Shown one piece after another: positions 16,113 to 23,289 of a stretch of DNA of 34,551 nt. The stretch is taken from contig JAFUOS010000005.1 in assembly GCA_017472665.1 (NCBI GenBank), positions 1-34,551 of the forward strand. Direction: 5' to 3'. Made by a program: the position numbers and the translations under genes. Position 1 is the first letter of the stretch. Each line of letters begins with the position of its first letter. The stretch is from Tyzzerella sp. GTDB lineage: Bacteria; Bacillota; Clostridia; Lachnospirales; Lachnospiraceae. The notes below the pieces were generated by a model, which worked only from the letters and a program-made list of their open reading frames with translations, was not told the DNA's origin and searched no databases.

Positions 16113-16209
16113 CTCTTATTGTTCGATTGCTCGCTCAGGTTGGCACCTTCCGCATACGGGGTTGCCGTGGCTTCATAGATCCTTTTACCTCCACCACTCT
16201 GAATAAGAG
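16113..16209 (-). ncRNA. SAM-I (S-box) riboswitch aptamer
   Basis: On the minus strand the P1 arms CTCTTATT (16202-16209) and AATAAGAG (16113-16120) enclose the S-box core: CAGAGTGGTGGAGG, then ATGAAGCCACGGCAACC and AAGGTGCCAACCTGAGCGAG. The conserved GGCAACC and GGTGCCAA segments and the position before metK leave little doubt. The aptamer senses S-adenosylmethionine. Confidence 0.95.
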
Positions 16210-17089: not shown

Positions 17090-18946
17090 CTATTCCAAAT
17101 CTTTACCAAGTTCACAAGTGTATAGCCACTCAATCTCATCACCCACCGAAACTTTATATTCTCCACAGCCAACCGATGGTTCTTTGTCATTTACCAAATA
17201 CATCCAGCCGGACAAATCCCCATAATCCATCTCATAAATATGATTGATTCCCTCTACATAAATTGCGGTCCCGCTGCCACTCGTTTCAAGATGAATCTTA
17301 TTTTTACCTGCAGCCTCCAGTAAAATATCATATACCGTGTCGCCTTCCTCGATTTCAATCTCTGTCACATCGAGAATAATACCGTCATCAGGGACATATT
17401 CTTCCTCACTTTTTCCTACAATCGTATCACATCGTATCGTCAAAGTCACTTTCCCAATAGCATTATCTTTGGCAGTATCGGCGTTTTTGTAATACTCTTC
17501 TGTTGTCTGAAAATTGGTTGCCAGAACAATAAAAATTGCTACGGCTGCAACCACAAGAATCGCAATGTAATTCTTTAGATTTCTCTTTTTCAAGAAATAT
17601 AAAATCAAACAAATAGCTCCTGCTATGATTGCAATGCCCAAACTAACCCACAATTTGTAATTGGTACTATTTTTTTGTTCTAAAGTAGCATTGTCATTCT
17701 TCCCCGTAACTGAGGTATCATCTGTAGTTGCATTTTTCTTGCCACCTGCTTCAGAAATTTTATCTTCTGTCTGATTATCCGTGACAGTCCCCTCTGAGCC
17801 GTCACTTGAAGCCGCTGCAGAATCTGTATCTGATTCCCCTTTATTCTGATTCGTTGTTGTTTGAGATGAATTGATAACCGAAGCACTATTTTCGCCTGTT
17901 TGGTTTGCAGCAGACTGTCCTCCAGACGATGTTGCTCCAGCAGCGTTTGAGATCGCGGAATTATCTGGTATCTGAAGTCCCGCTGGATTTCTAGCATCCA
18001 ATATATATAATCCACTCTGTCCGTTCTTCATACGCAGATAGGACACCATTGAATAAAACACCTGAACGGTAGCAGTTCCGTTAGAGCCTCCACCTTGTTG
18101 GTGGCAAAATGAACCATCTGATAATTGGTAGAGACTTATCCCATCAAACAAGGTTTTTCCATTCTTTATAAAACGGTTGTCAGTTTCACTATCGATCCCC
18201 AGCGTTGAAAGTGCGACAAGCACCTGCGCAGTACTTTCCAGATTGCCAACACCATAACTTGCATAATCTCCCGTGGCCTGCTGTCGATTAGATAATAATG
18301 TCAAAGCTTTATCGATTGCCGATTTTACCGAGGAATCGCTATGATAATATGGCGCTAGCGCCTGAACTGCCATTGCCGTCGCATCCACATCACTATAGGA
18401 GCCTGTGACAGCCCATCCACCATCGCTTAATTGCAGGGATAATAATTTCTGCTTTACACTAGATAGTGAATAGCTATTACTGCTATACCCATTGTTCAGT
18501 AGATGAAGACCAAATGTCCAACTCATAACCCCTTGTTGTCCGATAGAATCGTTTAACGTATTATATATGTACGAATCCGTACTGCCAGAAGCCACAAGAG
18601 CGAGTGCATATTTCTGACGCGACGACGCGGAATACACTTCATTTTGAGCCAAATAGTTCAAAAGCGCATTTTTATAAGAAGAAAAATCGTAGTTTCCATT
18701 CTGGCTCAAAGCAATTGCATACCATTCTGATGACACGCCTGCATTCTTTGTAATGGAACCATTAATCCATTGTTGAACAGAAGATGCACCAGAACTTTTC
18801 AAGTTATAAGCGACGATACCGTCGATAAAGCTTTGCGCTTCACCGACGGTTCGTGTGTTTTCTTGTGCTGAAACGGGCAATACACCTGTCAGCAGTACAA
18901 ACGCAGCAAGGCAGACAACAACTACCTTTCGCAATTTATTTTTCAT
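17090..18946 (-). CDS. membrane-anchored transcobalamin-like protein (alpha/alpha-barrel repeats + DUF4430)
   Basis: A 618-residue surface protein (numbers from MKNKLRK at 18946; AGGAGA lies upstream and the ATG seven codons earlier has no ribosome site). Residues 1-28 are a signal peptide. Residues about 34-315 are terpenoid-cyclase-like repeats (SLQLSDGGWAVTGSYSDVDA, LYQLSDGSFCHQQGGGSNGT), the fold of the N-terminal domain of intrinsic factor and transcobalamin. A Ser/Thr/Asn/Gln linker (325-428) leads to two membrane helices (431-452, 460-477) joined by KKRNLKN. The C-terminal region (about 497-618) is a DUF4430/transcobalamin-C domain with DLSGWMYLVNDKEPSVGCGE and VSVGDEIEWLYTC. By the positive-inside rule both large domains face outward. 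It is last in the cobalamin-riboswitch ECF operon and overlaps the upstream gene by 11 bp. Corrinoid capture is inferred. Confidence 0.85.
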   Translation of the reverse strand: MKNKLRKVVVVCLAAFVLLTGVLPVSAQENTRTVGEAQSFIDGIVAYNLKSSGASSVQQWINGSITKNAGVSSEWYAIALSQNGNYDFSSYKNALLNYLAQNEVYSASSRQKYALALVASGSTDSYIYNTLNDSIGQQGVMSWTFGLHLLNNGYSSNSYSLSSVKQKLLSLQLSDGGWAVTGSYSDVDATAMAVQALAPYYHSDSSVKSAIDKALTLLSNRQQATGDYASYGVGNLESTAQVLVALSTLGIDSETDNRFIKNGKTLFDGISLYQLSDGSFCHQQGGGSNGTATVQVFYSMVSYLRMKNGQSGLYILDARNPAGLQIPDNSAISNAAGATSSGGQSAANQTGENSASVINSSQTTTNQNKGESDTDSAAASSDGSEGTVTDNQTEDKISEAGGKKNATTDDTSVTGKNDNATLEQKNSTNYKLWVSLGIAIIAGAICLILYFLKKRNLKNYIAILVVAAVAIFIVLATNFQTTEEYYKNADTAKDNAIGKVTLTIRCDTIVGKSEEEYVPDDGIILDVTEIEIEEGDTVYDILLEAAGKNKIHLETSGSGTAIYVEGINHIYEMDYGDLSGWMYLVNDKEPSVGCGEYKVSVGDEIEWLYTCELGKDLE

Positions 18947-19856
18947 AGGATTTCTTTCTCCTGTCATTTAGAACAATGATACCAGAAAAAGCAACTGTCA
19001 TAAGAATCATGAACAGATACATATTTGTGCTGTCTCCCGTCTTAGGAGAACTTGTATTAGTATTTGTATTGACATTTGTATCTGTATTTATATTATTATT
19101 GGTATTTGCATTAGCATTCTGGTTGTTATCGGTGTTTGTGTTATTTGCTGCTGAAACGGTTGCCAAACAAACTGGTGGAACAAGAATCTGTGTATCAGAA
19201 ACCGCACTGATTACATGGTTTCCGCCATCTGCAATTTGGATAGTTGCTTTACCTTCAGCATCTGTTTTTACAGTAGTTTTAACACCATCTACAGTGATTG
19301 TTGCATCTGCGACAGCTACAACAATTGGCGCCCAATTATTATCAGCATCATAACCATTTGCTTTAAGTGTCAAAGAAATATCCTTTCCTGCATCAGTCGA
19401 AAAGCTATTAACATCAAAATAGCAATAAGTATCAGAATAGTATTCACCATCTGAATATACAAATGCATTGATATAATCGCCTTCCTTAACTGGGTCTGCA
19501 AGACTCCAAGCAGATGCATTGTTTACATAATAGCCAAAGTTTCCGCTTGCATCTCCCCAAAGTTTTCCTAAAGAGAGACCATAATCTACATGCATATAAG
19601 ACTGATATCCTGCAGCAGCACCGCCTTCATATTTTGCCTCATGCGCCGCATAAAGAGCTTCATCAATATTTAATTCTCCATCCTTATTGATATCTTGAAC
19701 CACAATCTTTTCCTGTGTCAGTGCCAACTTTCCATCCTTATCGGAAATAGTCACATACACATTTGCAGATAACGTTCCCTCCTCTGCAAATACCGTCAGG
19801 TTAAAACACCCAATCAGCATAATCGTCGTCATTACGACAGTAAGTAATTTTTTCAT
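18936..19856 (-). CDS. surface protein with EF-hand-like loop, Asn/Thr linker and SPKTG sorting signal
   Basis: A 306-residue exported protein with a signal peptide (1-24, cut after VFA). Residues 30-145 include an EF-hand/dockerin-like loop DINKDGELNIDEAL (55-68) and WGDASGNFGYYVNNASAWSL (100-119), whose GYYVNN...VKEGDYI layout recalls the DUF4430 motif of the next gene. Residues 150-232 form a second beta domain (TITVDGVKTTVKTDAEGKAT). Residues 237-268 are nearly pure Asn/Thr. The C-terminus is a sortase-type signal: SPKTGD (270-275), a hydrophobic helix and DRRKKSYEK. It is probably anchored to peptidoglycan and, given the operon, helps bind or hand over a corrinoid; that role is inferred. 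Confidence 0.85.
   Translation of the reverse strand: MKKLLTVVMTTIMLIGCFNLTVFAEEGTLSANVYVTISDKDGKLALTQEKIVVQDINKDGELNIDEALYAAHEAKYEGGAAAGYQSYMHVDYGLSLGKLWGDASGNFGYYVNNASAWSLADPVKEGDYINAFVYSDGEYYSDTYCYFDVNSFSTDAGKDISLTLKANGYDADNNWAPIVVAVADATITVDGVKTTVKTDAEGKATIQIADGGNHVISAVSDTQILVPPVCLATVSAANNTNTDNNQNANANTNNNINTDTNVNTNTNTSSPKTGDSTNMYLFMILMTVAFSGIIVLNDRRKKSYEK
19050..19150. repeat. degenerate hexanucleotide tandem repeat coding an Asn/Thr linker
   Basis: The plus strand shows repeated TTTGTA/TTTGCA-like units (gtatttgtattgacatttgt and following), coding the stretch NTNNNINTDTNVNTNTNT on the minus strand. Degenerate short repeats of this kind can vary in copy number between strains, changing the distance between the protein and the wall. 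Confidence 0.6.
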
Positions 19857-19918: not shown

Positions 19919-20470
19919 CTAAAAATGTTCGTCCTTTACAACAAATAAGCCATATTTCTTTTTCAGCCGCTCCAACTTTTCGCCAATTGGCTTCGCCAAA
20001 AGTGCTAAGAATATCACATTAGAAACAGCGTATTCTACAGTAACTGGAAGTGACGTAACGACAGTAGCAATATAGCGGGATAACCGAAAGGTATTATCCG
20101 CCCAAAGAGTTGCCCACACATCCATTGTCATAGAATAAAAAACTCCAGCAAATGCACCAAAAATGCAAAGCACAAATTTATTCTCCCGCAGCGGTTTTGC
20201 AAATAGCCCCGCAAGGAAACCTAACATCCCCCAAGCAAGCATCTGAAATGGCGTCCACGGGCCTTGTCCGAAATAAAAGTTGGAAACGACTGCAGATAAT
20301 GAACCGACTACAAATCCTGCTTTCTTCCCTAACCAAATGGCAACAATCACTGTGATTGCAGTAACTGGCTTGAATCCAGGAAACCACGCAAAGATAAATC
20401 TGCCAGCGGCGGATATTGCAATTAATACTGCAAGTATTGCTAGTTCCTTTGAAAAACTTTTCCTATTCAT
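19919..20470 (-). CDS. ECF transporter S component, probable corrinoid type
   Basis: A 183-residue integral membrane protein with about six helices (ELAILAVLIAISAAGRFIFA, AITVIVAIWLGKKAGFVVGS, PFQMLAWGMLGFLAGLFAKP and others), the size and pattern of ECF substrate-binding subunits. S components bind one vitamin and dock on the EcfA-EcfT module. I chose the ATG at 20470, which overlaps the ATPase stop codon as ATGAATAG. The cobalamin riboswitch upstream and the transcobalamin-like genes downstream suggest a corrinoid or its precursor as substrate. From memory it fits the CbrT-like group; the ligand cannot be proven from sequence. Confidence 0.87.
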   Translation of the reverse strand: MNRKSFSKELAILAVLIAISAAGRFIFAWFPGFKPVTAITVIVAIWLGKKAGFVVGSLSAVVSNFYFGQGPWTPFQMLAWGMLGFLAGLFAKPLRENKFVLCIFGAFAGVFYSMTMDVWATLWADNTFRLSRYIATVVTSLPVTVEYAVSNVIFLALLAKPIGEKLERLKKKYGLFVVKDEHF

Positions 20471-22109
20471 TTGCACGCCCTGCCTTTCTTCCATTCATTC
20501 GGCACAGTTCTGCTACTTCTTCGCACAAAATCGCATTTTGGAAATATCCTCTGGAAATGCGATTAGCAGCAGTCGTATAGAAACTATTTTCGGTGAAGAA
20601 ATTTGTTGGTGTATCGGTAGATACCAATTCTCCGTCGAAGAACATTCCACACCTGTCAGCTTCCGAGGCAGCAAATTCTACATCATGCGTAACCGTGATT
20701 ATGGTAATTCCTTCCTCTTTCAGCTCCTTCATGATTGCCGAAAGAGTTCGTTTCGAATATGCATCAATGCCTTTCGTAGGTTCATCCAAAAGTAAAATTT
20801 GAGGCTGAAGCAATAATATCTTCGCAAGTGCCGCTTTTTGCTGTTCACCGCCACTCAAATCATAGGGATGCATCTGAAGCAAATGTTCAATGCCTAATCT
20901 CCCCACAACATTAGCGATTTTGTCTTCACTTTCTGTTGGCGTGTATTTCATAATTCGGCAAGCTTCTCCTAGATCTTCTTCTACCGTTTTCTCAAGAAAT
21001 ACTGTTTGTGGATTTTGAGGCAAAAATGCGACTTTCCCTTTTGTCAAAATCTTACCCCGGTACGCTTTCAGAAGACCTGCAATGACTCCCAACGTTGTTG
21101 TTTTACCAGTTCCGTTACCGCCTAACATACAGAAATGTTCGCCTTTATAAACCTGCAGCGAAACACCTTTCATAACATCTGGCAGTTCTCGTTCATAGCG
21201 GAACCACACTTCTTTTAACTCAACGGTTTTTTCATCACAATGCCTATACGGCTTTGCTGTAACTGTATCTATGTCATCTTTGTAATTTTCTATCACATAA
21301 TCTCTTCCTTCGCGAACAGTAATTGGACAATCCCCCTCTTCTTGGAGCAGTCCAAAAATACGCATAGCAGCAGGCAGACCTGCAAGCATAGGGTGCGAGG
21401 GATAGGCTTTAAAATATGTACCAATATTCTTCGGATGGTCATCACAAATCAGTCTGCCTTCTTCCAGCACCAACACCCGATCCGCAATCGGAAAAACATC
21501 TTCCAATCGATGTTCCACCAGCAAAATGGTAAGTCCTAATTCCCGGTTAAGTTTTTGCAACGTACCTATAAAGTTCATAGCCGCAATGGGGTCGAGTTGT
21601 GCTGTAGGCTCATCCAGCAATAATATTTTCGGCTGCATTGCCATAACAGAAGCAAGGTTCAGAAGTTGTTTCTGACCGCCAGATAGTTCTGTGGTCTTTT
21701 TATGAAACCATTCTTCAATACCGAAATAGCTTGCCATTTCTGCAACTCTACGCCTGATGACCTGTGTATCAAAGCCAAGACTTTCCAGACCAAAGGCTAA
21801 TTCGTGCCATACGGTATCTGTTACAATCTGACTTTCAGGGTTTTGTAAAACAAATCCGATATTTGACGCAGCAGCACGCTCATCGACTTGCGATAAGGAA
21901 ACCCCATCATATAAAATATCGCCGCTTTTCTCACCATATGGTGAAAGCTCCCTTTTTAGGAGTTGCAGCAACGTAGATTTGCCACAACCGGATTCACCAC
22001 AGATTACCGCAAATTCTCCAGCTTTTAGGGAAAGACTTATACTATCTAGTGCACTTTTCTCTGCATCAGGATATCGAAAAGTTAAATTTTTGATCTGTAA
22101 TATTTCCAC
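20463..22109 (-). CDS. ECF transporter ATPase, two fused ABC domains
   Basis: A 548-residue protein with two complete ABC ATPase domains, equivalent to EcfA and EcfA' joined in one chain. The first has Walker A GESGCGKST (38-46), signature LSGGQKQ (142-148) and Walker B ILLLDEPTAQLD. The second has GGNGTGKTT (330-338), LSGGEQQ (418-424) and ILLLDEPTKGID. It powers the S and T subunits. The start is GTG at 22109 with AGGAGGG 6 bp upstream, and it overlaps the EcfT gene by 28 bp. The dedicated arrangement suggests a transporter that does not share the housekeeping ECF module. Confidence 0.95.
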   Translation of the reverse strand: MEILQIKNLTFRYPDAEKSALDSISLSLKAGEFAVICGESGCGKSTLLQLLKRELSPYGEKSGDILYDGVSLSQVDERAAASNIGFVLQNPESQIVTDTVWHELAFGLESLGFDTQVIRRRVAEMASYFGIEEWFHKKTTELSGGQKQLLNLASVMAMQPKILLLDEPTAQLDPIAAMNFIGTLQKLNRELGLTILLVEHRLEDVFPIADRVLVLEEGRLICDDHPKNIGTYFKAYPSHPMLAGLPAAMRIFGLLQEEGDCPITVREGRDYVIENYKDDIDTVTAKPYRHCDEKTVELKEVWFRYERELPDVMKGVSLQVYKGEHFCMLGGNGTGKTTTLGVIAGLLKAYRGKILTKGKVAFLPQNPQTVFLEKTVEEDLGEACRIMKYTPTESEDKIANVVGRLGIEHLLQMHPYDLSGGEQQKAALAKILLLQPQILLLDEPTKGIDAYSKRTLSAIMKELKEEGITIITVTHDVEFAASEADRCGMFFDGELVSTDTPTNFFTENSFYTTAANRISRGYFQNAILCEEVAELCRMNGRKAGRANE

Positions 22110-22963
22110 TGTAAGCCCTCCTTTACTTCAAGAATAAACGGCAACAGAACAAGAACTGCAAAAGTAATCATTGCCAAAAAATTATATATGGTCATTGTTG
22201 TTGCTGAAATCGTTGGATAGAAGGAAAAATCTAACTGTCCGGTTGCCATTACCATGACTATGATCGCATCCATAGCCATAATCGCTGCCATAAGCAGTGC
22301 GTCTGATTTGCGGAATGTAAATATCGAGTAGTGACTTCTGCCTTTTAATCCATAACCACGTGCTTTCATGGATGAGCCGGTATCAATTGCATTTTCCAAA
22401 GCCCATGTAATCAGAGCGGAATATACTCTCATACTGCCTCTCAATTTGTCCGTCCATGCTTCCGATGCAAACAAGCCCATGGCTTTTTGTGATTGTCGTA
22501 TTCTCGCCGCCTGGATTTTTAATAATGGTATAAATCGCAAAGCCGAGGAAAGCAGCAAAGAAATTTTTGGCGAGATTTTTCCAAATAAGAATAAAAGCTT
22601 GTCCTCAGTCATGATTTTGTTGAAGCATTTGAACCAGTACATTACCGCAACCAGCATAATTGCAATATCTACACCATATAAAAGCGCTTCCAAAGTAATC
22701 GGATTACCATTTAAAAAGAATAGCGGCGTAACGCCGTCATGCGAAAATAACGGATTTGTAAGTGTAATTATCACAATCAAAACTAAGTAAAAGCGGAACT
22801 CTTTCAAAAAATGAATGCCTTTTTCTGTTTTCGTGTAGAATAGAATCCCACCGAGCAAAGCAACAAATAGCAATATCGGATTAGCAGTAAACATTGTAAT
22901 AACCAACACCGACACAAAATATAATGCAGAAACTACTGGATGCAGGTTGGAAAAGTTAATCAT
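22082..22963 (-). CDS. ECF transporter transmembrane protein EcfT
   Basis: A 293-residue EcfT with five to six hydrophobic segments (FVSVLVITMFTANPILLFVA, FYLVLIVIITLTNPLFS, ATTMTIYNFLAMITFAVLVL). The coupling-helix ARG motif is visible in GSSMKARGYGLKGRSHYSIF (near residue 205), which contacts the ATPase grooves. The start codon overlaps the stop of the upstream small ORF as ATGA. It joins the double ATPase with the S component. Confidence 0.95.
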   Translation of the reverse strand: MINFSNLHPVVSALYFVSVLVITMFTANPILLFVALLGGILFYTKTEKGIHFLKEFRFYLVLIVIITLTNPLFSHDGVTPLFFLNGNPITLEALLYGVDIAIMLVAVMYWFKCFNKIMTEDKLLFLFGKISPKISLLLSSALRFIPLLKIQAARIRQSQKAMGLFASEAWTDKLRGSMRVYSALITWALENAIDTGSSMKARGYGLKGRSHYSIFTFRKSDALLMAAIMAMDAIIVMVMATGQLDFSFYPTISATTMTIYNFLAMITFAVLVLLPFILEVKEGLQWKYYRSKI

Positions 22964-23247
22964 TTGTTTCCTCCCTTTTGCGTTCTACTTTTTTCCTGCT
23001 TTTGTAATGCATGAATGCGTTGTGCCTTTGCCTTGCCAGATTTTCTTTTCTTTTTTGTATTTTTCAGCGCGGGCCTGGCTTCCTTCAATCCAGCCGCCTC
23101 CAACGCTCTTGGCCATGGGCCAAGAAATGCTTTGATACGCGAACGTGTAACCTCATCAAAATCATCTTTATGTGGCAAACGCCCAAGTTCTTTTTCTTTT
23201 TGCAGCAGTTGCTCTACTGCCCATTCTTTCTTATCTTCTGGTGTCAC
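22960..23247 (-). CDS. small basic protein resembling a homing-endonuclease-associated repeat
   Basis: About 95 residues, strongly basic at the C-terminus (NTKKKRKSGKAKAQRIHALQ). The N-terminal half reads KEWAVEQLLQKEKELGRLPH then IKAFLGPWPRALEAAGLKEA, which is like the HNH-associated DNA-binding repeat (LGR-P...FG-W--AL-AAGL). No nuclease domain is present, so it would be a nucleic-acid-binding protein only. The likely start is the GTG at 23247, 7-8 bp after AGGAGGT; an ATG at 23253 is too close to that site. It is first in the cobalamin-riboswitch operon and overlaps EcfT by 4 bp, so it is co-regulated with B12 uptake. Function unknown. Confidence 0.75.
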   Translation of the reverse strand: MTPEDKKEWAVEQLLQKEKELGRLPHKDDFDEVTRSRIKAFLGPWPRALEAAGLKEARPALKNTKKKRKSGKAKAQRIHALQKQEKSRTQKGGNK

Positions 23248-23289
23248 ATCCATACCTCCTGCCAAGAATTATTTTTAAGCGTAAAAAAA

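Follow-up and report, generated by a model that had tools for sequence, protein, structure and literature searches.

Intrinsic factor, transcobalamin and haptocorrin, the soluble B12 carriers of vertebrates, combine a helical barrel with a beta domain of the DUF4430 type that lies C-terminal to the barrel. The presence of a DUF4430 domain in TCN proteins has been reported (PMC4350170), and eukaryotic B12 proteins have been described as encapsulating the vitamin with two domains (PMC13398666). In Bacteroides, the BtuG, BtuH and BtuJ/DUF4465 proteins capture B12 at the cell surface beside importers and are partly riboswitch-controlled, but they have unrelated folds and serve TonB-dependent Gram-negative systems (PMC6977713, PMC13398666, PMC8941943). 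The ECF-CbrT transporter of Lactobacillus delbrueckii (6FNP) imports cobalamin and cobinamide, with Kd values of CbrT of 9.2 nM for cyanocobalamin and 36 nM for cobinamide, and CbrT in proteoliposomes moves B12 without an extracellular partner (PMC5997447). For many gut genomes, identifying the systems that transport B12 has been called an open problem (PMC6593275). No description of a bacterial two-domain B12 binder was found in searches of open-access articles other than preprints, and none of the open-access papers naming DUF4430, as judged by title and the start of the abstract, concerned a bacterial B12 binder; of these papers, PMC4350170 also mentions the vertebrate binders.

Herein, we describe a locus that shares with ECF-CbrT the S-component family and, as a prediction, B12 as the ECF cargo, but adds two secreted proteins to the dedicated ECF module, whereas the accessible sections of PMC5997447 name no extracellular binder. 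The DNA analysed (the window) comprises 34,551 nt of Tyzzerella sp. (Lachnospiraceae; GCA_017472665.1, contig JAFUOS010000005.1, positions 1-34,551). On its minus strand, a cobalamin riboswitch (RF00174, 23445..23667, 80.4 bits against a gathering score of 31.5) is followed by an ORF for a 101-aa basic protein with no assigned function (22960..23265), EcfT, EcfAA', EcfS, a 306-aa protein and a 625-aa protein. The 101-aa ORF gave no match in NCBIfam and has homologues in 13 of 80 related loci (the best 80 of 350). EcfT, the transmembrane coupling subunit (22082..22963), also gave no NCBIfam match, and its identity comes from position, transmembrane pattern and homologues in 79 of the same best 80 loci. 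EcfAA' (20463..22109) consists of two fused ATPase domains, with two PF00005 matches and 349.7 bits to TIGR04520, and EcfS (19919..20494) is an S component of the CbrT type. Thus, the original prediction that the 625-aa protein is encoded by the last gene of an operon with a cobalamin riboswitch and a full ECF transporter, S component included, agrees with the features found. Elsewhere in the window, a SAM riboswitch (16113-16209, minus strand) lies upstream of an S-adenosylmethionine synthetase-like gene, an ordinary arrangement. A viral or plasmid origin was considered and rejected, as the 49 pattern matches in the viral_contigs collection included no relative.

The host genome, a 65%-complete MAG, encodes proteins and enzymes with B12-binding domains, which was counted in favor of corrinoid capture, and CbiG, a marker of B12 synthesis, was not found in this 65%-complete assembly. 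A second cobalamin riboswitch was observed in the same genome (locus L068, contig C15). After it come a short DUF4430 protein and an S component, with neither EcfT nor EcfA nor a barrel, and approximately 10 kb further on, a 796-aa B12-binding protein.

The 625-aa protein (ORF 17090..18967, minus strand) begins with a signal peptide and a barrel-type helical domain, continues through a disordered linker and a pair of membrane helices and ends in a DUF4430 domain. Met8 is conserved in at least 90% of 81 aligned full-length sequences (the window protein and 80 relatives from the best 80 of 350 loci), and position 18946, which had been given as the gene boundary, is for this reason probably a better start than the ORF start at 18967. 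The AlphaFold2 model built from this alignment reached a mean pLDDT of 83.9 and a pTM of 0.65. Residues 35-340, approximately (17948..18865), are helical throughout, with ten-residue pLDDT means mostly above 90; the linker (residues 345-433) is mostly below 50; the membrane helices span residues 436-458 (17594..17662) and 464-483 (17519..17578); and the beta domain is modeled, like the helical one with high pLDDT, across residues 505-617 within the C-terminal part (residues 505-625, 17093..17455). With a pTM of 0.65, the model does not fix the relative placing of barrel and DUF4430 domain, and this was counted against the capture reading. Hydropathy analysis of the 81 sequences revealed, in 73, two membrane segments that start between residues 380 and 520, with 3 to 5 Lys/Arg in the loop between the helices, suggesting, by the positive-inside rule, that both domains lie outside. 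These results are consistent with the earlier claims that an alpha/alpha-barrel-like repeat domain and a DUF4430 domain are joined in one protein, separated by a linker and two membrane helices, and that both face outward. Unlike intrinsic factor, transcobalamin and haptocorrin, in which the two domains form soluble carriers, the window protein has its domains set apart by a disordered linker and a pair of membrane helices and is predicted to be tethered at the membrane.

The DUF4430 domain (PF14478) scored 65.3 bits against a cut-off of 23.8, with an E-value of 7.1e-18 over residues 542-617. To compare this domain with proteins of known structure, a profile of 43 diverse DUF4430 segments (A10) was searched against 177,635 PDB sequences. 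Seven of the best eight matches were transcobalamin (E-values 0.0025, 0.059, 0.06, 0.06 and 0.33) or intrinsic factor (0.35 and 0.36), each matched in the C-terminal beta domain, and the remaining one was a Ruminococcus gnavus protein (3u7z, 0.11). Because none of these marginal values (0.0025-0.36) passes 0.001, and a narrower DUF4430 profile (A2) had no PDB match at E up to 1, the evidence is to be read as a ranking. Within the beta domain, C513, Y570, S586, W588 and Y590 are invariant in the 81 sequences.

The barrel has a different pattern of relatives. Its profile (A1) matched squalene-hopene cyclases first in the PDB (E 4.1e-20) and alpha-2-macroglobulin after these, whereas neither transcobalamin nor intrinsic factor appeared at E up to 10; a phmmer search with another barrel-DUF4430 protein also gave no PDB match at E up to 10. 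As judged from the profile, the window barrel is a toroid of the squalene-cyclase superfamily. Against PF01122, the family of the eukaryotic cobalamin binders, it scored 13.7 bits (E 0.031) under a cut-off of 25, and among 43 barrels, four matched this family at E up to 0.1, the best at 0.0033. No protein passed the PF01122 cut-off in 398 sampled phylum genomes, and by this cut-off, the barrel is not counted as a member of the family. The barrel originally proposed from a repeat pattern stands as a toroid by sequence; the whole protein has the build of transcobalamin, with a barrel that is a sub-threshold candidate for the transcobalamin subfamily. Three sub-threshold PF01122 matches were observed in the 398 genomes. 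In the two best, each scoring 19.7 bits by hmmscan, the barrel is followed by DUF4430 and then by S-layer anchors; one of the two (L176) is encoded directly downstream of a riboswitch. The third (L177) lies inside a riboswitch-rich cluster. Anchoring of barrel and DUF4430 proteins through S-layer homology domains was observed at L175, L176 and L185. In the barrel, D195, T197, Q229, N242, E244, Q248, K268 and H289 are invariant in all 81 sequences. An additional observation is that 38 of the 43 barrels match the Streptomyces-named NCBIfam family SCO2321_fam at E up to 0.1, the window barrel with 26.2 bits against a cut-off of 300; these matches are a lead that the system might extend to Actinobacteria.

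The S component points to the cargo. In the PDB sequences, the only strong match of EcfS was 6fnp_A (E 1.7e-10, the next being 0.091), and an EcfS profile of 33 rows (A11) matched the CbrT structure at 4.2e-26 and two other S components at 8.5e-6 and 0.0021. The nearest NCBIfam model is a folate S-component family, at 27.3 bits against a cut-off of 60. The best reading of these comparisons is that the transporter encoded in the operon is a CbrT-type ECF importer with cobalamin as the predicted cargo.

The 306-aa protein (18936..19856, minus strand) appears to be secreted and wall-anchored, with scores just above the cut-offs for the LPXTG signal (TIGR01167, 19.9 bits against 15.9) and for the sortase B sorting signal (19.1 bits against 18.15). 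Its model (pLDDT 94.5, pTM 0.88) shows strand, strand, helix and four strands, in the order of the DUF4430 domain, followed by an Ig-like half. An hhalign comparison with DUF4430 gave a probability of only 20%, with the G-Y-Y-V-N and G-D motifs aligned, and in one locus (L063), this family is fused to a barrel. Thus, the 306-aa protein probably holds a second DUF4430-type domain. It also carries a DxDxDG stretch resembling a calcium loop.

The recurrence of the system was examined in two sets of genomes. The 625-aa protein matched 49 of 200 family genomes (E up to 0.001), and RF00174 is present in 38 of these 49. In 27 of the 49, an RF00174 element on the same strand stands at most 15 kb upstream of the best match, compared with 0.196 expected at random placing under a uniform-placement null with one best match per genome. 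Among the 38 riboswitch-bearing genomes, 11 have no riboswitch upstream of the best match, a result counted against the capture reading. The first set of 41 loci, consisting of the window and 40 loci hand-picked from the match list after the riboswitch list was known (covering 39 of the 49 matched genomes, the host genome included), contains DUF4430 in 41/41 and the barrel in 38/41, and all 38 barrel loci also have DUF4430. In these 38, EcfT and EcfA were each found in 29, EcfS in 28, the 306-aa family in 13 and the riboswitch (by nhmmer) in 25. The three components T, A and S occur together in 28/38, with several loci lying at contig ends, and this figure was also counted against capture. Both domains are present in one chain in 21/38, in either order: the window type has barrel, two membrane helices and DUF4430, and the other order (e.g. 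L047) has DUF4430 and then the barrel, with a linker of down to approximately 15 residues that contains no membrane segment. Elsewhere, as in L044, barrel and DUF4430 are encoded by two adjacent genes. That the pairing survives these rearrangements suggests joint action of the two domains, both lying on one side of the membrane. At L040, a protein of 3382 aa that combines DUF4430, 306-family and barrel domains was observed adjoining two divergent cobalamin riboswitches. At the phylum level, profile A5 matched 75 of the 398 sampled genomes (E up to 1e-10).

The second set was obtained from a genome_contigs scan, which gave 396 pattern matches, 350 of them relatives; the best 80 of the 350, which share the query architecture by construction, were analysed. 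They derive mostly from Ruminococcus flavefaciens and other rumen and gut Clostridia, and apart from EcfT, they contain EcfA in 76, EcfS in 74 and the 306-aa family in 77. The commonest order is riboswitch, 306-aa family, barrel protein, EcfT, EcfA and EcfS; thus, the barrel gene, which is last in the window operon, precedes EcfT in most of these loci. Riboswitch-like elements were observed in 56 loci by nhmmer and in 43 by a short-form covariance model (R1), together in 69/80, with the models trained on some of the same loci and 15 elements (nhmmer alone or joint) at E above 1e-5; outside the training sets of both models, the figure is 52/63. Rfam itself was applied to two short elements, L111, which matched RF01689 (AdoCbl-II) with 40.1 bits, above the gathering score of 36.5, and L085, which matched RF01482 (AdoCbl) with 40.3 bits, below the gathering score of 50. 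Of the 11 loci without an element, some (L117, L120, L146) start a few hundred bases from a contig end. Two riboswitch-like elements per operon were observed at L104, L141, L148 and L149, the second lying between the barrel gene and EcfT.

Herein, we propose that the barrel and the DUF4430 domain capture a corrinoid outside the cell and hand it over to the CbrT-type S component, a reading that we consider probable. The domains, the topology signals, the operon, the riboswitch, the S-component family and the recurrence are read directly from the sequence; from these, we infer that the protein binds a corrinoid, that both domains close on a single ligand and that the cargo is handed over. Scarcity of corrinoid would relieve the riboswitch; after export, the two membrane helices would hold the protein in place, one arm bearing the barrel and the other the DUF4430 domain. 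Both domains might then close on the corrinoid, in the way that intrinsic factor and transcobalamin use their alpha and beta domains, retain it close to the membrane and deliver it to the S component, after which the ECF module would tip the loaded S component inward. The wall-anchored, DUF4430-like 306-aa neighbor is probably a second capture station. Our best reading is that the protein would work like transcobalamin, whether or not its barrel, which scores below the PF01122 cut-off, belongs to that family. The capture receptor of the original prediction is partly supported, by the two-domain build, the outward topology, the CbrT-type S component, the riboswitch and the recurrence.

Other roles for the protein have to be weighed against these results. 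The measurable kinship with transcobalamin lies in DUF4430 (the A10 ranking), the barrel is generic by profile A1, and at L068, a short DUF4430 protein and an S component accompany the riboswitch but no barrel does; corrinoid might thus be bound by the DUF4430 domains of the 625-aa and 306-aa proteins alone, with the barrel serving as a scaffold or docking to the S component or the cell wall. We regard this as unlikely, given the many polar barrel residues that are invariant in 81/81 sequences and the presence of both domains in every first-set barrel locus. A slightly smaller chance is given to a role in the ECF complex without corrinoid binding, such as assembly, stability, sensing or wall passage. 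Because CbrT alone binds B12 tightly, a dedicated capture protein is not obviously required, which was counted against capture, and the transport of B12 by CbrT in proteoliposomes without such a partner (PMC5997447) is in line with a non-binding role; however, the kinship of DUF4430 with B12 carriers in the A10 search and the persistence of the barrel/DUF4430 pairing over differing orders, chains and anchors argue for binding.

Squalene-hopene cyclases are the best structural relatives of the barrel by sequence and share its superfamily with related alpha/alpha toroids, as would be expected if it were a secreted terpene-cyclase-like or other enzyme. The DxDD motif is the catalytic motif of squalene and terpene cyclases. 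In the barrel, this site reads D-x-D-V/A-T, and the fourth position is Asp in 0/81 sequences. An enzyme was rejected on this loss and is highly improbable in a B12 operon; in contrast to the cyclases, the window barrel is exported and paired with DUF4430. Cobalamin riboswitches also govern other transporters, and another B12-regulated solute, e.g. cobalt, might be the cargo, but the S component is of the CbrT type and not of the CbiM type, leaving this a very small probability, barely above that of an enzyme.

A wider hypothesis, which we put forward tentatively and with less than even confidence, is that Bacillota widely use a two-piece, transcobalamin-type surface clamp for capture and hand-over to ECF transporters, and that the vertebrate build is a soluble offshoot of an old bacterial device. 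To our knowledge, no ECF transporter is known to work with an extracellular binding protein. If corrinoid capture by the barrel and DUF4430 is true, ECF transporters would gain an outside partner, and the capture proteins of a common importer would be named for Gram-positive gut and rumen bacteria. Two families that lack an assigned function, DUF4430 and the barrel that partners it, would become testable B12 binders, and the clamp of the intrinsic-factor type would be bacterial as well as animal.
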